From assembly GCA_023954195.1 (NCBI GenBank), contig JAMLIK010000001.1, positions 186,001-250,000 on the forward strand: a DNA stretch of 64,000 nucleotides, given 5' to 3'. This DNA comes from Xanthobacteraceae bacterium. Lineage in GTDB: Bacteria > Pseudomonadota > Alphaproteobacteria > Rhizobiales > Xanthobacteraceae. Position numbers and translations under genes: made by a program. The notes under the pieces are model-generated. The model was not told the origin of the DNA. It saw nothing but the letters and a program-made list of their open reading frames with translations, and did not search any database. Below are positions 6,442-59,546 of this stretch, in pieces; positions within the stretch are counted from its first letter, which is position 1; every line of letters starts with the position of its first letter.

Positions 6442-7023
6442 CTACTGCTTGGCGCCGACCCAGCGGCCATGGCAGCCGTCGCTACGCTGGAATGTCCCGG
6501 AGCCGCTGCGCCCGGACAGCCGCCCCCGGCTGGTGACGACGATGCCGTTGTAGTTGCCGCTGCCGGTCAGCGATCCGTTCGCGTTGATGGTCGCGCTGCC
6601 GTAAGAGCCGGTCATCGTTCGCCCGCTGACGGTGACGGTTTCGCGGAAGGTGTCGGAGCAATTGATGCCGGCGCTTGAAAGCGACCAGGTGCCATCGAAT
6701 GAACCGCCACCGCCACCGCCACCACTTCCGCTTCGGCCGCTGTTGCGCGCGGCGGCGGGCCGGTGGCTCGGTTTCGGCTTGCTTTGCCGGGCGGGCCGCT
6801 CCGCCGGCGCGGCTTCGCGCGATCCCGAAAGCGACTTTTCCCGGTTGCCGATGGTGCCGCCCATGCTGCCGGACTGCGCGAGCGTTTGCACGGGCATGCG
6901 CGCATCGCGCAATGCCGGGTGCGATATATCCATCCGCGCGGCATGAGCCGCGGAGCTTGCCGCGAGCAGCAATGACGTTGCCGAGAAGCATGCAACGAAG
7001 GCGGGGAGGCGGGGGCGGTACAT
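6442..7023 (-). CDS. Secreted protein with SGSMGGTIGNREKSLSG motif, paralogue 1
   Basis: Unknown function, 193 residues. The chosen ATG at 7023 gives a clear signal peptide (MYRPRLPAFV to SSAAHA, cleavage near residue 28). Next comes a conserved motif around 50-69 (SGSMGGTIGNREKSLSG), an Arg/Lys/Pro-rich linker, a run of seven glycines, and a C-terminal domain of about 85 residues starting FDGTWSLSS and ending DGCHGRWVG. That domain looks beta-rich and contains two cysteines. The gene at 7198 encodes a clear paralogue, and a caspase-like gene lies upstream on the same strand. A longer frame to 7080 exists but would bury the signal peptide. Export is well supported; role is not known. Confidence 0.75.
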   Translation of the reverse strand: MYRPRLPAFVACFSATSLLLAASSAAHAARMDISHPALRDARMPVQTLAQSGSMGGTIGNREKSLSGSREAAPAERPARQSKPKPSHRPAAARNSGRSGSGGGGGGGSFDGTWSLSSAGINCSDTFRETVTVSGRTMTGSYGSATINANGSLTGSGNYNGIVVTSRGRLSGRSGSGTFQRSDGCHGRWVGAKQ

Positions 7024-7149
7024 TGGCAATGACTTTCGAGCAAGGTTGAGGTTCGAACAGTCTGATTTGAACGAATCCATCTGTGCGTCCGGACGACGAG
7101 AGTCAAATTCGCCTGCGTTGAATCAGGCTCGTCGTTTATCTTTTTGTTT

Positions 7150-7200
7150 GAGCATGATCTTTTCCGAAAACCGGTCTCCACATTTCGGCATCATGCTTTA
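7150..7200. repeat. Dispersed palindromic repeat, family 1, copy 1
   Basis: An imperfect palindrome that begins GAGCATGATC and ends ATCATGCTTTA, with CCGAAAACCGG in the middle. Similar copies lie at 13272-13322 and 59471-59546, and a truncated one at 55610-55629. Its last three bases (TTA on the plus strand) are the stop codon of the minus-strand gene at 7198. The preceding bases ATCTTTTTGTTTGAGCATG are shared exactly with the truncated copy. This repeat style is common between genes in Bradyrhizobium relatives. Confidence 0.8.
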
Positions 7201-7749
7201 GTTTTTGACGGCGGTGAAGCGTCCGGTGCAGCCGTCGGTCTGGCGGTAGATTCCGGAAGCCCGCCGACCGCTCGCTCGCCCGGATCCGAAGGATCTGACG
7301 CCATTTCCGACGTTGGTGACCGAATTGATGGTGCCGTTCGGGCTGATCGATCCGCTGACGCCCTGGCCGATCAGGCGCCCGCTGGAAACCACCACGGTCC
7401 CGACGCCCGCGCCGCTGCATCCGACCGAACTGACCGTCCAGGCGCCGTCGAAATTGCCGCCGCCGCTGCCGCCGCTGCGTCGGGTCGGCGTTTCCCGCTG
7501 GCCTCTTGGTTTGCTGTGCTGCGCCGGGCGTTCGCTTTCGCCGCCGCGCGACCCCGACAACGATTTCTCGCGATTGCCGATGGTGCCGCCCATGCTGCCG
7601 GACTGCGCGAGACGGATTTGATTCACCGTGCGCCACGGGGTTGCCTCGGATGGCGCGATTGACGATGCCATCGCGGTCGCCGGGACGAGCAACATCGCGT
7701 TCATGCCCATCGCCGCCGTCACAATGCGCAGATGAAGGGAAGCATCCAT
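7198..7749 (-). CDS. Secreted protein with SGSMGGTIGNREKSLSG motif, paralogue 2
   Basis: Unknown function, 183 residues, paralogous to the protein at 6442. A hydrophobic N-terminus (residues 9-29, ending ATAMA) reads as a signal peptide. The shared motif sits at about 49-68. A basic Arg/Pro-rich linker follows, then the C-terminal domain (FDGAWTVSSVGCSG to DGCTGRFTAVKN), which aligns with paralogue 1 over about 83 residues. The start is only 17 bases after the caspase-like gene stops, which points to one transcript. The stop codon is the edge of a dispersed repeat. The linkage suggests a shared role with the caspase-like protein, but nothing in the sequence defines it. Confidence 0.75.
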   Translation of the reverse strand: MDASLHLRIVTAAMGMNAMLLVPATAMASSIAPSEATPWRTVNQIRLAQSGSMGGTIGNREKSLSGSRGGESERPAQHSKPRGQRETPTRRSGGSGGGNFDGAWTVSSVGCSGAGVGTVVVSSGRLIGQGVSGSISPNGTINSVTNVGNGVRSFGSGRASGRRASGIYRQTDGCTGRFTAVKN

Positions 7750-7766
7750 TCCGGCGAACTCGCTTG

Positions 7767-9134
7767 CTATCGTTGATCCGGCAGGCCGGAGCCATCCGCG
7801 CAGACGGCGCCGATGATGTTGCAGGCCTGTCCCGACTTGCCGCAGGCGGTGAGCGAATCCAGCTTGGCCTTGTCGATGGTGTCGCGCGCCATCAGCGACC
7901 AGTGCTTGTCGGAGGCCGCGAAGGCGCCGCAGGTCTTGCCGTAGAAGCTCAGTTCGATCGGGCATTTGGACTTGCCGCACTTGCCGCGGGCGTCGGCGAC
8001 CGCCTCCTTGCGCGTGACATGCCCCCAGGACAGGCCCCATTTGCCGCTGTCCTCGCCGTAGACGATCGAGCCCCACGGGCCGACATATCGGGTCTCGCGC
8101 AAGCGCCGCAGCAGCCCCTCGGTGGCTTCGCCGGTCGGCGGCAGGTCGTTGACGGACTGGAAGCTGCGGATCGCGACTTTCATCGCCGATTTGCCGTCCG
8201 GCGTTTCCGGATCGAAATTCAGCTCGTAAAGCCGCTCGTTGATTTCCCGGAGCTGCGCCGGGTCGGTGATTGACTTGGCGTCGTCGCCGAGGCGGGGCGG
8301 GGGCGCGAGCCGCGCATCCTGTTGCAACGGCGCCGCCGCCGGCGGCGCGGCCGGGGCGGCCGGCGGCACGAAGTAGAAGGTGCCGTCGATCGGTGACGAC
8401 GACACCCACGGCTGCTGCGAACCGCCGGTGGCGCGTTTCACGGCAAGGCCGACCTGGTTGAAGGTCTGGAAGATGTCGAGACCGGCGCGCCGCACCGTGC
8501 TCGCCAGCGCGCGGGTGTAGGGGCTGTGGCCGTCGGTGCCGTCCTGCGCCACGCTGCCGGGTTGCGTGGCATAGGAAATCAGGGTGCCTTCCGGCGCCCG
8601 CATTTGCGCAAGCCCACCCTCGGCGGCGCGCAAGCCGCGACCGCCGAACGGGTTGTTGCGGCAGGCGTCGAGAATCACCAGGTTCAACTGCGTGCCCGAG
8701 CCTTGCATCTGGCGCAGCACCAGGTTGACGTCGACCATCTGAAAATCGACATCGGCCTCGCGGGTCGGGTTGGCGTTGACGGGCACCAGATAGTTGGAGC
8801 CCGCGACCTGCACGCCGTGGCCGGCGTAATAGAACAGCGCGACATCGGCGCCCTGGACTTGCTGCCCGAAGGTTTGCACGGCGCGGTCCAGCGCCGACTT
8901 TTCCAGATCGAGCTGGGCGGCGTTGCCGACCAGTTGAAAGCCGAGCGCGCGCAGCGTCTCCGCCATCAGCTTCGCATCGTTTCTCGGATTGTCGAGCCGG
9001 GTCACGTTCGCATAGGCCGAATTGCCGACGATCAGCGCGACGCGCTTTTCCGCCGACGCCGGCGAGGCGAGCAGGATGAAAATAGCGGTGGCCGCGAGGC
9101 AATATCTCGCAATGGCAAAAATAAACGTCGGCAT
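7767..9134 (-). CDS. Secreted caspase-like (orthocaspase/metacaspase) protein with DUF4189-like C-terminus
   Basis: A 455-residue exported cysteine peptidase of the caspase (C14) family. Residues 1-28 are a signal peptide ending SPASA. The p20-like domain spans about 30-260, with H106 in YYAGHGVQ and C158 in LDACRNNPF as the expected catalytic pair. A Pro/Ala linker follows at about 266-300, then a peptidoglycan-binding-like helical stretch (about 315-360). The last 90 residues are Cys-rich and resemble DUF4189 (WGLSWGHVTRKEAV, CGAFAASDKHW). Members usually cleave after Arg or Lys, but specificity is not shown here. The two secreted paralogues downstream are candidate partners or substrates. 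Confidence 0.88.
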   Translation of the reverse strand: MPTFIFAIARYCLAATAIFILLASPASAEKRVALIVGNSAYANVTRLDNPRNDAKLMAETLRALGFQLVGNAAQLDLEKSALDRAVQTFGQQVQGADVALFYYAGHGVQVAGSNYLVPVNANPTREADVDFQMVDVNLVLRQMQGSGTQLNLVILDACRNNPFGGRGLRAAEGGLAQMRAPEGTLISYATQPGSVAQDGTDGHSPYTRALASTVRRAGLDIFQTFNQVGLAVKRATGGSQQPWVSSSPIDGTFYFVPPAAPAAPPAAAPLQQDARLAPPPRLGDDAKSITDPAQLREINERLYELNFDPETPDGKSAMKVAIRSFQSVNDLPPTGEATEGLLRRLRETRYVGPWGSIVYGEDSGKWGLSWGHVTRKEAVADARGKCGKSKCPIELSFYGKTCGAFAASDKHWSLMARDTIDKAKLDSLTACGKSGQACNIIGAVCADGSGLPDQR

Positions 9135-9246
9135 GATCGCATGATCCGGCGATAATTGCCGGACGATAACAGCAGATCACGCATTTTGGGAAGGGCCGCC
9201 TCGCGCCGCGACCGAGGGCGCGGCGCGCGACGCCCGTGGCTTCCGC

Positions 9247-10305
9247 TCAGTTGCAGAGCATGATGCGGCCGACCACCTTGCCGGCGCGCAGTTCGTCGAT
9301 CCATTTCTGCACGTCGCGCATCGGCGCTTCCTTGATCGGGGGCGGCTGAATTTTGCCGGCCCGCGCCAGCGCCAGCAGTTCCTTGCCTTCCGCGAGCGTG
9401 CCGACCATGAAGCCCTCGATGGTCATGCGCTTGTAGATCCATTGCACCATCGGCAGGCTGAAATTGCCGCCCATCAACCCCGAGATCACGATCTTGCCGC
9501 CGCGCGCCACCGTCGAGACGGCGAGGCCCATCGACTTCTCGTTGCCGGCGAAATCGACCACGCCGTCGAACCCGCCGCCGCTCTCCTTGAGCATGCGCTT
9601 GACCACGTCCGGCTCGGACGGGTCGTAAGCCGCCGCCGCGCCGTTCTTCAGCGCCGCCTCCCGCGCCGCCGGGCTCAGATCCGCCACCGTGATATCCTGC
9701 TTGAACATGGTCTTGGCGAAGGCCAGGCCCATCATGCCGACGCCGCCCAGCCCGATCAGCAGCAGGTTGCGCTGGCGCGGCCGCTCGACCAGGCGCTTCA
9801 GGGCGCCGTAGGCGGTGACGCCCGAGCACATCAGCGTCGCGGCGAGATCGATCGGCAAGGGATCGTATTCGAGCAGGTATTTCGCGTCCGGCACCAGCAC
9901 ATGGCTGGCGAAGCCGCCGTCGATCGAGACGCCCATGAAGCGGTGCCGGGCGCAAAGATTCTCGTCGCCGTTGAGGCAGTCTTGGCATTGGCCGCAGCCG
10001 ATCCACGGAAACACCGCGTATTTCTTCCCGATCAGGTCGCGCGGCGCGTCGGGGCCGACCTCGTCGACCACGCCGGCGATCTCGTGGCCGAGCGTGAACG
10101 GCAGCGTCATGCCGCGCGTGGTGTCCAGCCGCTTGCCGTTGCCGAGATCGGCGTAGCCGTCCTGGATATGCAGGTCGGAGTGGCACAGGCCGCAGCGCTC
10201 GATCCGCACCAGCACCTCGCGGCCTTGCGGCTTGGGGGTATCGACGATGGTTTCGCACAACGGCGCGTCGAACTTGACCAGGGATTGACGAAACATCTGC
10301 GCCAT
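9247..10305 (-). CDS. Zinc-dependent alcohol dehydrogenase
   Basis: A 352-residue medium-chain dehydrogenase/reductase. Catalytic zinc ligands are seen in ERCGLCHSDLH and TLGHEIAG. The structural zinc lobe is GCGQCQDCLNGDENLC, with four cysteines. The Rossmann motif is GLGGVGMMGL. It should oxidise an alcohol or reduce an aldehyde with a nicotinamide cofactor, but the substrate cannot be read. Its start lies 12 bases from the rsmA stop on the same strand, so it may be read from the lpt-rsmA transcript, though its function looks unrelated. Confidence 0.9.
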   Translation of the reverse strand: MAQMFRQSLVKFDAPLCETIVDTPKPQGREVLVRIERCGLCHSDLHIQDGYADLGNGKRLDTTRGMTLPFTLGHEIAGVVDEVGPDAPRDLIGKKYAVFPWIGCGQCQDCLNGDENLCARHRFMGVSIDGGFASHVLVPDAKYLLEYDPLPIDLAATLMCSGVTAYGALKRLVERPRQRNLLLIGLGGVGMMGLAFAKTMFKQDITVADLSPAAREAALKNGAAAAYDPSEPDVVKRMLKESGGGFDGVVDFAGNEKSMGLAVSTVARGGKIVISGLMGGNFSLPMVQWIYKRMTIEGFMVGTLAEGKELLALARAGKIQPPPIKEAPMRDVQKWIDELRAGKVVGRIMLCN

Positions 10306-10317
10306 CGCGTATTCTCC

Positions 10318-11184
10318 TCAGACCGAACGGGAATTTTCGGCCCGTATATTGGCCAATTCGCGCGCCATGGCAACAAAGCCCGTGAGCGGAACGGTTTCGG
10401 CGCGCCGGGTCGGGTCGAGGCCGGCGGCAGCCGCCAGCCGCTCCGGCGCGACGCCGAGCGATTTCAGGCTTTGCCGGATCATCTTGCGGCGCTGCCCGAA
10501 CGCGGCGGCGGCGATCTGCTCCAGCGCCTTGCGCTCGCACGCCAGAGGGGTTGCGCGCGGCAACAGCCGCACCACCGAGGAGGTGACCTTCGGCGGCGGC
10601 ACGAACGCCGAGCGTGAAATGTCGAACAGGATCTTGGTCTCGGCGCGCCAGTTGGCGAGCACCGCCAGCCGCCCGTAAGCCTCGTCGTCCTCGTGGGCGA
10701 CGATGCGCTCGGCGACCTCGCGCTGGAACATCAGCACCATGGTGTCGTACCAGGGCGGCCACGGCTCCACCGACAGCCAGCCGACCAGCAGCGCGGTGGC
10801 GATGTTGTAGGGCAGGTTGGCGACGATTTTTGCGCACTCATTGCGCAGCATTGGGCGCGGATCGAACGTCATCGCGTCGGCGCGGACGATCTCCAGCCGC
10901 CCCGGATAGTGCGCCGCGATCTCCTCCAGCGGCCCCAGCGCGCGTTCGTCGCGCTCGATGGCGATGACGCGCCGCGCGCCGAGCGCCAGCAAGGCGCGGG
11001 TCAGTCCGCCCGGACCGGGGCCGATCTCGATGACGGTCGCCTGCTCCAGCGGCCCGGCGGCGCGGGCGATCCGGGCCGTCAGGTTGAGGTCGAGCAGAAA
11101 ATTCTGGCCGAGCGATTTTCGTGCCGACAATTGATGACGCCGGATCACGTCGCGCAGCGGCGGCAGATCGTCGATCGCGGTCAT
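10318..11184 (-). CDS. rsmA: 16S rRNA dimethyladenosine transferase
   Basis: Also called KsgA. It dimethylates the two adjacent adenosines in the 3'-terminal hairpin of 16S rRNA during 30S assembly. The 288-residue protein has [10 protein letters not shown] near the N-terminus, the SAM-binding [16 protein letters not shown], and the NLPYNI catalytic motif of N6-adenine methylases. It overlaps the pdxA stop by 4 bases. The surA-pdxA-rsmA order is a classic conserved operon and supports the call. Confidence 0.97.
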
Positions 11185-12182
11185 CCCCGCGCCGCCGCCA
11201 TGCGCGCGGCGAGACGCAGCGCGGCAATCAGGCTCGACGGGTTGGCCCGTCCGCTTCCGGCGATGTCGAACGCCGTGCCGTGGTCCGGCGAGGTGCGGAT
11301 GAAGGGCAGTCCGAGGGTGACGTTGACGCCGTCGTCGAACGCCAGCGTCTTGATCGGGATCAGCGCCTGATCGTGATACATGCAGACGGCGCAGTCATAG
11401 GTTTTGCGCGCGGCGGCGTGGAACATGGTGTCGGCCGGCAGCGGGCCGCGTGCGTCGATGCCTTCCGCCCGCAGGATCGCGACGGCCGGTGCGACGATGG
11501 CCCGATCCTCATGGCCGAGCGCGCCGCCTTCGCCGGCATGCGGATTGAGGCCGGCGACCGCGAGACGCGGCCGGGCGATGCCGAACCGCCCGATCAGGTC
11601 GGCGGCAAGGATGCGCGACGTGGCGACGATGAGGTCGGTGGTCAGTAGCGCGATGGCGTCGCGTAGCGGCAGATGGATCGTCACCGGCACCACGGCCAGC
11701 GTCGGCGACCACAGCATCATCACCGGAAGCGGCGTCCGGCCGCCTTGCGCCGCCAGTTCGGCGAGAAATTCGGTATGGCCCGGATGCTTGAACCCGGCGT
11801 CGTACAACACGCTCTTGGCGATCGGGTTGGTGACGACGGCGGCCGCGAGGCCCGAACGCACGTCGGCGACGCCGCGGCGGATCGCCGCGATGGCAAGCGG
11901 CGCGCTGCTGGCGTCGGGTCTGCCCGGCTCGGCGGGGGACGTGACGCCGATGTCCACCACGGGCAGGGCGCGCGCGAAGGCGGCGGTCGCCTCGCGTGGC
12001 GAAACCTCGGCGATGGCGAGATCGAGGTTCAGCGTTTTGGCGCGGCGGCGGATCAGGTCGGCGTCGCCCACGAGATAAAACGGCGGGATTTGCGCTTCCG
12101 CGCGCCGCAACCATGCGGCGATGGCGATGTCGGGGCCGATCCCCGCCGGCTCGCCGACGGTCAGTGCGAGAGGTTGCTGCAT
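11181..12182 (-). CDS. pdxA: 4-hydroxythreonine-4-phosphate dehydrogenase
   Basis: Oxidises 4-phosphohydroxy-L-threonine in the DXP-dependent route to pyridoxal 5'-phosphate. The 333-residue protein has the metal-binding histidines in THLPLRDA-like (IHLPLRDA), [10 protein letters not shown] and [12 protein letters not shown], the third being a strong PdxA signature. The start [11 protein letters not shown] is typical. It overlaps rsmA by 4 bases and follows the surA-like gene after 27 bases, as in the conserved operon. Confidence 0.96.
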
Positions 12183-12209
12183 CGCGCGGGCCTGCTTGCG
12201 AAATCCGGC

Positions 12210-13139
12210 CTATCGGTACTCGATCATCGCGGCCTTGCGGATATCCCGCAGGTAGGATTTCGATCGCGCTTCATACTTCTGCATATAAAGCTTTTCGCGG
12301 ATCTTGCGCTGCTCCGGCGTATCGCCGCTGGTCGGCTTGCGCGAGCACAGCGCGACCATCTCGATGCCCTGGCGCGTCACCTCGGGGGCGGTGAGGTGGC
12401 CGACGGGTGTTTTGTCCAGCAGCTCGCGCAACGCCTGCGGCAGGTCGGCGGAGGTCTTGACAACGGTGTCGCGGATGGTGGCGTTGCGCATGGAACGGAA
12501 CAGGGCGTTGGCGTCGTCGCAGCTCTGCACCCGGCTGCGCAACGTCTCGGCCTCCTTGCGCCGCATGTCGATCGCCGACGCCGGCGAGCCGCGCGGCACG
12601 ACCAGAATGATCGGACGCATCTGATATTCGAAGTTGCCGCCGTTGTCCTTGCCGTCGCCGAGACCGCCGGACGCGGCGCGGACCGCCTTGTCGTTGACCG
12701 TCAGACTGTCCTTGAACCGGCCGCGCACCAGGCTGCCCCAGACCATTTCCGCCTTGATACGGTTTCGCAGCGTTTCCGCGCGAATACCCCGACCCGCCAG
12801 CGTGTGGGTGAGCTGATCGGCCGAAAGACCCATCCGCTGGCCCATCGCGGCGAAGGATGCATCGAGATCGGCGGCCGAGGGATCGACGCCGTAGCGCTTG
12901 GCTTCCCTGATCTTGACCTTCTCGTCGATCAGTTCCTCAAGGACTTCCTTGCGGCTGCTTCGCTGGTTCGACAGCGCCATCAGGCGCATGCGCTGGTCGA
13001 TGTCGAAATTGGTGATCGGCTCGCCGTTCACCATCGCCGCGACGGACTGGGCGCGGGCCGGCGCGATGCCGGCGGTCGCCGAGACGGCGGCAATGGCGAT
13101 GAGGGCCAAAACTGTCAGACGAAGCGGAAAAAGCATCAT
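12210..13139 (-). CDS. SurA-like periplasmic chaperone/peptidyl-prolyl isomerase
   Basis: A 309-residue exported protein with a signal peptide at about 1-30 (ending APARA). The SurA N-terminal chaperone domain covers about 33-160 and includes VAAMVNGEPITNFDIDQR. The region from about 165 should be a parvulin isomerase domain but is poorly conserved; the usual GGDLGW-type motif is missing, so isomerase activity is doubtful. SurA proteins escort outer-membrane proteins, and LptD is a classic client. Here the gene sits just downstream of lptD on the same strand, separated by a repeat. I infer a chaperone role in outer-membrane assembly. Confidence 0.82.
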   Translation of the reverse strand: MMLFPLRLTVLALIAIAAVSATAGIAPARAQSVAAMVNGEPITNFDIDQRMRLMALSNQRSSRKEVLEELIDEKVKIREAKRYGVDPSAADLDASFAAMGQRMGLSADQLTHTLAGRGIRAETLRNRIKAEMVWGSLVRGRFKDSLTVNDKAVRAASGGLGDGKDNGGNFEYQMRPIILVVPRGSPASAIDMRRKEAETLRSRVQSCDDANALFRSMRNATIRDTVVKTSADLPQALRELLDKTPVGHLTAPEVTRQGIEMVALCSRKPTSGDTPEQRKIREKLYMQKYEARSKSYLRDIRKAAMIEYR

Positions 13140-59470: not shown

Positions 59471-59546
59471 GAGCATGATCTTTTCAGGAAGCCGGTTTCC
59501 GCCCCCCGGATCAAGTCTGGCGGCACGTTTTTTGGATTATGCCCTA
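59471..59546. repeat. Dispersed palindromic repeat, family 1, copy 3
   Basis: Starts GAGCATGATCTTTTC and includes GCCGGTTTCC; the right side is longer and more diverged, ending TTGGATTATGCCCTA. The last CTA is the TAG stop codon of the minus-strand L,D-transpeptidase. It lies between two minus-strand genes. Confidence 0.7.

Follow-up and report, generated by a model that had tools for sequence, protein, structure and literature searches.

A short tag on exported proteins accompanies a PG_binding-DUF4189 module fused to caspase-like peptidases: a candidate tag-and-reader system

In a stretch of 64,000 nucleotides from a Xanthobacteraceae bacterium (hereafter the window), we examined a three-gene locus that is best explained, with a probability of about one half, by a tag-and-reader system outside the inner membrane. 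The tag is a short segment common to exported proteins, and the reader is a PG_binding-DUF4189 module (PG_binding_1 plus DUF4189) attached to an enzyme. Compared across genomes at the level of sequence, the tag is modular, it co-occurs with and adjoins the reader almost perfectly, the enzyme bearing the reader is exchanged, and one letter of the tag tracks the reader clade. More tentatively, the reader would be an undescribed periplasmic receptor for the N-terminal GGxIGxxxK tag, with exchangeable outputs, namely caspase proteolysis or inward signalling by a transmembrane Ser/Thr kinase. We found no description of such a tag-reader system in the literature, as far as it was searched.

The locus consists of three open reading frames, all on the minus strand as the preliminary description had reported, with the following features:

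7767..9134, minus strand: exported C14 (caspase-like) peptidase gene, putative, 455 aa, H106/C158, with C-terminal reader module
8373..9047, minus strand: Peptidase_C14 catalytic domain, residues 30-254 (PF00656, E 6.8e-42)
8100..8255, minus strand: PG_binding_1 domain, residues 294-345, first half of the reader (PF01471, E 6e-7)
7800..8075, minus strand: DUF4189 domain, residues 354-445, second half of the reader (PF13827, E 7.5e-19)
7198..7749, minus strand: tag protein 1 (P0002, 183 aa), with putative signal peptide, tag, basic linker and C-terminal beta-barrel domain
7552..7605, minus strand: tag in protein 1, Q49-G66, QSGSMGGTIGNREKSLSG
7201..7452, minus strand: C-terminal beta-barrel domain of tag protein 1 (alignment and L067 model)
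6442..7023, minus strand: tag protein 2 (P0003, 193 aa when counted from the ATG at 7023; 7080 is the start of the longest ORF)
6823..6876, minus strand: tag in protein 2, Q50-G67, the same 18 residues as the protein 1 tag
6445..6699, minus strand: C-terminal 8-stranded beta-barrel domain of tag protein 2 (alignment, L067 model and Foldseek)

The peptidase and the tagged proteins are probably exported, as first proposed, since inspection of the N termini shows, in each of the three, a signal-peptide-like segment with an AxA-type site. Seventeen bases separate the peptidase stop (ending at 7767) from the ATG of tag protein 1 (7749), in agreement with the preliminary description, and the homology it had noticed between the two paralogues extends over 148 matched amino acids at 51% identity (E 9e-27); they are the only two mutual matches in the window's genome at E <= 0.001. 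Their common sequence, AQSGSMGGTIGNREKSLSGS, is identical at 20/20 residues, and its DNA differs at 7/60 bases, all synonymous. The DGCxGRx motif is present in both C termini (TDGCTGRFTAVKN and SDGCHGRWVGAKQ), but lies near the end and is not terminal as had been described.

The Peptidase_C14 domain scored 144 bits against a curated cut-off of 21.4, and the nearest solved chains to it are those of the MALT1 paracaspase (E 6e-13). Alignment with MALT1 bore out H106 and C158 as the catalytic residues and placed the acidic residues D53 and D156 opposite D365/D462, which we take to be S1 pocket residues of MALT1. With the catalytic domain, the H/C dyad and the acidic S1 residues, the peptidase resembles the prokaryotic caspase homologues, or orthocaspases (PF00656). 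These are commonly fused to other domains, and the available text of that account (PMC3501461) mentions neither the PG_binding-DUF4189 module nor the tagged partner genes that are features of the window's system. Both halves of the reader had been overlooked on the peptidase in the preliminary description. DUF4189 scored 68.6 bits against a cut-off of 25, and its fold resembles that of Rv1813c (7nhz; profile E 0.0036); for the relative L067, Foldseek gave E 3.5e-3 and a TM-score of 0.60 of the target. Rv1813c has the same domain fold, yet it stands alone in the accessible part of its description (PMC10269737), whereas in the window DUF4189 forms one chain with PG_binding and an enzyme and has a tag associated with it. 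The peptidase reached 68 bits with the EACC1-associated caspase model (NF047832), below the NCBIfam cut-off of 140, and among the PADLOC anti-phage defence models only a caspase model matched it (E 2e-9), with no match for the two partners. NCBIfam and solved structures likewise gave no match to the tag proteins; the reader was not found in phages, nor tag protein 2 in plasmids.

The tag has the consensus Q-[SA]-G-[SA]-x-G-G-[ST]-[IL]-G-x-x-x-K-[ST]-[LVA]-S-G. It is positioned at, or about 20 residues past, the signal-peptide site, and is followed by a basic or proline-rich linker and then by one of several C-terminal domains. The C-terminal parts of 137 tagged entries fell into nine groups without detectable mutual similarity by phmmer, which leaves remote kinship possible; seven of the nine are solid, and one is SH3_3. 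One group holds the same gene twice, one depends on L151, whose tag is marginal, and one on L120, which is a very short protein. The barrel of L067 was modelled by AlphaFold2 with eight strands and pLDDT mostly >90. Lys was present in 150/150 profile hits, all of which passed a pattern that demanded GG, the I/L/V/M place, G and K. The G three places ahead, free in that pattern, was found in 142/142 entries, a set that includes a chance hit (G443) and truncated duplicates and numbers 138 without them. The G443 hit, in another family (E 8e-4), was rejected because its frame runs antisense to a fabG-like gene (identified by reading). A codon table of 114 tags carries little weight as evidence: it shows no replacement at the invariant places, but the search pattern demanded those very letters (Q, G, GG, the I/L/V/M place, G and K), which makes this outcome inevitable.

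Tag-dependent sorting also places a single tag on a number of dissimilar exported domains, and we considered whether the tag might be a localisation or surface-anchoring signal, processed or held by the reader-enzyme. The locus shares with LPXTG/sortase and PEP-CTERM/exosortase a short tag, dissimilar exported domains and a dedicated enzyme gene, here that of an adjoining cysteine peptidase. In contrast to those systems, the tag follows the signal peptide and is neither C-terminal nor accompanied by a membrane segment or anchor, no attachment chemistry is visible, and a kinase occupies the place of the peptidase in one genome, so that the enzyme is exchangeable and the binding-type module is the constant part. 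We therefore regard sorting as improbable. The TonB box is likewise short and conserved, and in exported proteins it lies close to the mature N terminus, where a periplasmic domain docks it; the tag resembles it in this respect, but no barrel receptor, TonB or energy transducer was seen in what was searched.

Across 341 genomes of the GTDB family, with tag hits counted at E <= 0.004 (the next hit was at 0.018), tag and reader were both present in 49, the tag only in 1, the reader only in 0 and neither in 291. The tag-only genome (G353) is 84% complete, and the reader was not found there. A tag gene lies directly downstream of 46/47 full-length peptidase orthologues in these genomes, the 47th being cut by a contig end, which strongly supports the earlier suggestion of dedicated partners. 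Adjacency to a C14 gene, which had been named as the refuting test, was seen for 68/88 tag genes, all beside a C14-reader gene (62 by survey, four in G027 and two behind a contig break in G303); of the remaining 20, the kinase genome G319 accounts for ten, with the other ten lying elsewhere, and the suggestion stands. At the reader loci of named genomes, a tag gene adjoins the reader in 75/78 cases; two of the exceptions are at a contig edge, and the third is the kinase locus, whose genome has its tags elsewhere.

These partners are real, but their link is to the PG_binding-DUF4189 module and not, as had been assumed, to the caspase as such. In a survey that fetched part of the C14 matches listed, 94 of 171 different C14 catalytic domains had a reader together with a tag gene no more than 3 kb away, and 75 had neither; the two exceptions were a reader only (at a contig end) and a tag only (a frame-broken copy). 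Reader-less C14 genes had no tag neighbour even where their catalytic domains were up to ~75% identical, five tag-less genomes carry 5-14 C14 matches each, and a full reader was found on only 1/65 C14 matches in eight genomes. The common peptide is thus not simply a caspase site: the 75 reader-less domains and the five tag-less genomes rule out a general one. The barrel domain was likewise rejected as the link to the caspase. Untagged barrels occur in G067 and in four G019 genes, and neither genome has a reader or a tag at E <= 0.01. The reader is also accompanied by tagged proteins whose domains are not barrels. One locus, L259, had appeared to be a reader lacking a caspase; the caspase frame there is interrupted and resumes in a different frame.

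The reader itself occurs on several C14 lineages: among 56 catalytic domains, the reader rows require 6 label changes, one of which is the broken copy. In one MAG, G319, it is part of a Ser/Thr kinase-membrane helix-PG_binding-DUF4189 fusion, encoded near a contig end and not found in the 19 other genomes searched. This genome carries ten scattered K-type tags, in which the Lys is kept, and its single C14 gene has no reader. The readers that go with K-type tags group in a single clade (96/95) that includes the kinase and two other caspase lineages, and the letter behind GGxIG (N, or D in three loci, versus K) tracks the reader clade and not the enzyme, through one change in the reader tree. 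The reader-tree rows L218 and L228 carry D. Judged from these comparisons, the tag goes with the attached reader domain and not with the protease itself, because both persist together where another enzyme has replaced the caspase.

The kinase genome also bears on the reading first put forward, in which the tagged proteins are substrates: DUF4189 would recruit them and the caspase would cut after the invariant basic residue. A cut after K63 of protein 2 (followed by S) would free the C-terminal domain or an N-terminal peptide. A basic-cleaving S1 pocket, suggested by the alignment of D53 and D156 with MALT1, and a tag position that is always basic (K throughout the profile hits; R in G095 by ungapped alignment) make such cleavage possible, and orthocaspases cleave C-terminal to basic residues, according to the available text of PMC6426788. 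The preliminary description had called for complex structures, and AlphaFold2 gave no confident docking. In a read-through fusion of tag and reader the tag was disordered (pLDDT 32-37), and with the caspase added its pLDDT was 26-38; only with the catalytic domain in the model did one short, weak strand appear, at residues 480-483 just past the Lys; it lies within a block whose pLDDT averages 52, and its confidence is low. In G319, however, the reader sits on a kinase, the C14 gene is reader-less and the ten tags keep their Lys, and close relatives of the catalytic domain without a reader have no tag neighbour. For these reasons we consider the substrate reading rather unlikely.

Could the tag proteins instead restrain the enzyme through the tag? 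Small beta-barrel protease inhibitors (AprI/Inh) act through an N-terminal arm, and the model shows a barrel with a disordered N-terminal arm, encoded by gene pairs that adjoin the peptidase. Inhibition nevertheless seems very improbable, given the ten tags of the kinase genome, the tags on SH3_3 and further non-barrel domains, and several orphan tag genes distant from the enzyme gene.

It could also be that tag and reader were merely co-inherited as neighbours, with no contact between them. In 62/78 named loci the surroundings match the window's gene block on its gmk or adh side; much of the adjacency is therefore vertical, and the co-occurrence counts are not independent. Nonetheless, reader-tag loci occur in at least seven gene contexts, the orientation is convergent in the seven cassette-bearing g29 genomes, and scattered tags are confined to reader genomes, except in G353. 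The exchange of the enzyme and the case of G095 add to this, and make simple hitch-hiking highly improbable. G095 holds the sole full-length reader encountered beyond the family, by chance, and directly downstream of it lies a diverged tag-like gene (E 0.0028 in a small set) that the order-wide tag profile had missed. This gene was noticed only via the adjoining reader. Surveys of 397 genomes of the order, with no true tag outside the family, and of 240 genomes of the class, with a tag only in the window's genome, used a profile blind to diverged tags, and do not prove absence because that profile missed the G095 tag. Reader-less C14 loci fetched from other families had no tag gene.

Our model of the tag-and-reader system suggests that secreted proteins would carry the tag behind the signal peptide, followed by a linker and a variable C-terminal domain. 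The PG_binding-DUF4189 module would sit at the peptidoglycan, to judge by its domain name, and would recognise the tag by direct contact. This contact would control the fused enzyme, which would be the output: in the window the putatively secreted caspase-like peptidase, elsewhere other C14 lineages and, in a single case, a Ser/Thr kinase that has a membrane helix. A comparable sharing has been described for YARHG, an extracellular domain found both in a C14 peptidase secreted by Bradyrhizobium and in transmembrane kinases, and suspected of binding peptidoglycan; it is a different domain from the reader, and the accessible part of that study (PMC3355149) mentions no tag or partner family.

Under this model, secreted bacterial caspases, whose targets are mostly unknown, would gain a defined set of partners in Bradyrhizobium, Rhodopseudomonas and Tardiphaga, which are harmless and amenable to laboratory work, and DUF4189, so far a fold without an assigned function, would gain a concrete candidate ligand. 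The findings further suggest that one sensing module may serve both proteolysis and kinase signalling.

The peptidase gene and its neighbours in the window are arranged as follows.

7767-9134, minus strand: C14 (caspase-like) peptidase gene, 455 aa, with Peptidase_C14 at residues 30-254, PG_binding_1 at 294-345 and DUF4189 at 354-445
7198-7749, 3' of the peptidase gene: tag protein 1 (P0002)
7140-7190, between the two tag genes: palindromic repeat-like element
6442-7023, 3' of the peptidase gene: tag protein 2 (P0003)

Judged by inspection, the peptidase carries an N-terminal signal peptide. Both H106 and C158 were found, and in the alignment D53 and D156 correspond to D365 and D462, the S1 residues of the paracaspase MALT1. 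Neither tag protein gave a Pfam or NCBIfam match above cut-off. They have in common a 20-aa stretch that is identical in protein and differs in DNA at 7 of 60 bases, all synonymous. The core of the palindromic element, CGGTTTTCGGAAAAGATCATGC, has one further copy in the window, at 59473-59494 with 3 mismatches (0 expected).

Across genomes, the tag (a short conserved GGxIGxxxK-type stretch) goes with the PG_binding-DUF4189 module, here called the reader, and sequence could hardly show an association more clearly. The full reader was found in 49 of the 341 genomes of the GTDB family: tag and reader occurred together in 49, the tag alone in one (G353, 84% complete), the reader alone in none and neither in 291, among which a genome with a DUF4189-only match (G048) was entered. 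The tag profile gave 88 matches at E <= 0.004 in 50 genomes, the next-best match having E 0.018. Of these tag genes, 68 adjoin a C14-reader gene, ten lie in a genome with a kinase-reader fusion (G319) and ten elsewhere. A tag gene lies directly 3' in 46/47 full-length orthologues of the window peptidase; the 47th (G303) runs off its contig, and in the same genome a second contig opens with the last part of a gene of this kind (a 43-codon open frame), ahead of two tag genes. Seven genomes of one genus (code g29) have the tag gene convergent with the peptidase gene, on the opposite strand.

Scanning by reader, independently of the tag, yielded 78 loci in named genomes, a survey that overlaps in genomes with that of the 341. 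A tag gene adjoined the reader in 75, the exceptions being two contig-edge loci (L258, L266) and the kinase locus L284. One record titled Burkholderiales bacterium Chersky.17_31 (L217) holds a Bradyrhizobium-type cassette, and its name is probably misassigned. The window cassette sits in the block mltG-yicC-gmk / cassette / adh-ksgA-pdxA-surA, whose gmk or adh side is common to 62 of the 78 loci; most tag-reader adjacency is therefore vertical. The 34 loci compared fell into 13 context groups; six of these consist of one locus each on a short contig, which leaves at least seven contexts.

Of the 171 distinct C14 catalytic domains present across the collected loci, 94 had reader and tag within 3 kb and 75 neither; one had only the reader (contig end) and one only the tag (a frame-broken copy with the reader in the next ORF). 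The sequence continued for 1000 bases or more 3' of 65 of the 76 domains lacking a same-ORF reader. Five tag-less genomes are rich in C14 matches (G001 5, G002 9, G004 7, G007 6, G012 14). While checking the kinase fusion, we met a C14-PG_binding-DUF4189 gene in another family (G095); the gene directly 3' encodes an exported protein with AQAGSVGGRVGSGKRDLSGG, missed by the earlier tag-profile survey (weak score, E 0.0028 against a small set). When more C14 loci were examined, nearly all from other families, a full reader on the C14 gene was again confined to G095, as was a tag-like neighbour.

Two loci stand apart. In Bradyrhizobium barranii subsp. apii 1S5 (L259, 7089-8474) the caspase part is frame-broken, by decay or sequencing error, and the reader and tag gene after it are intact. 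A reader-less caspase (L171 in G388, 9100-12435), 72% identical to the window's in its catalytic domain, has a tandem C-terminal repeat that may be YARHG-like.

The tag itself is modular. In G027, four successive genes 3' of a C14 gene combine the same stretch type with differing C-terminal parts. Across all collected loci, 150 profile matches gave 142 tag entries, or 138 once a chance match and truncated duplicates were removed, with the tag immediately after the signal-peptide-like end or ~20 residues beyond. The C-terminal parts of 137 entries form nine groups without detectable mutual similarity, seven of them solid: the DGCxGRW barrel with 113 entries, a second small domain with 11, a third with 4, then pairs and singles. 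One pair, tested on L130, is SH3_3 (E 5e-6, score exactly at cut-off). The two tagged SH3-like proteins (L128 in G279, 9277-9744; L130 in G359, 9607-10134) lie distant from the caspase gene. At L286 (6359-6928), 5' of the reader gene, the tag precedes a SUEL-lectin-like domain (weak match, E 0.07, below cut-off). Four untagged exported barrel-protein genes in G019 (L074, 6572-8176 and 11157-11657; YDGxWSVLIVT..CDRAYRY..WTAERR) represent a wider family, kin to the tag proteins' C-terminal domain.

The enzyme in front of the reader is exchangeable. In G319, a Ser/Thr kinase domain (Pkinase E 2.7e-31) is followed by a hydrophobic segment, which reads as a membrane helix, and then the reader; this genome has ten tag matches over nine contigs and a single C14 match, without reader. 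Among the 20 genomes searched around G319, the fusion was found in it alone. A tree of 56 catalytic domains required six changes for reader presence, one due to the frame-broken copy. The residue after GGxIG was N in 67 of 72 named loci with the window-type caspase and D in three (Rhodopseudomonas), two having no tag in reach; it was K in L285, L281, L286, L287 and all ten G319 tags, and Q in L283. Readers with K-type tags form a single clade (96/95) that includes the kinase and two caspase lineages (L285; L281 and L286, with truncated L287), and the catalytic-domain tree places L285 apart from L281 and L286. Checked locus by locus, tag type thus follows the reader, not the enzyme. The pattern depends on one change in the reader tree, and linked inheritance of tag and reader could account for it.

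AlphaFold2 models of read-through fusions showed zero confident tag contacts. The peptidase may also cut the tag, a less probable reading that would be compatible with reader binding. A weak strand (480-483, block mean pLDDT 52) directly after the invariant Lys, present when the catalytic domain was included in the model and absent without it, is at most a hint of such cleavage. In models of a relative's locus (L067), the tag-protein domain is an eight-stranded barrel, closest in Foldseek to designed fluorescence barrels (E 1e-3) and more weakly to Cap15 and fatty-acid-binding proteins; its DUF4189 resembles Rv1813c (7nhz), and in passages of PMC10269737 DUF4189 is presented as a novel fold whose function is unknown. 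Conflict-system caspases with effector-associated domains are described in passages of PMC7159879, from which the term DUF4189 is absent. According to passages of PMC3355149, YARHG occurs on a Bradyrhizobium caspase and on transmembrane kinases. This is a parallel to the reader here, with one outer domain for both enzyme types. We hypothesize, with a probability of about 0.5, that the reader would bind the tag and that the enzyme fused to it would give the output.
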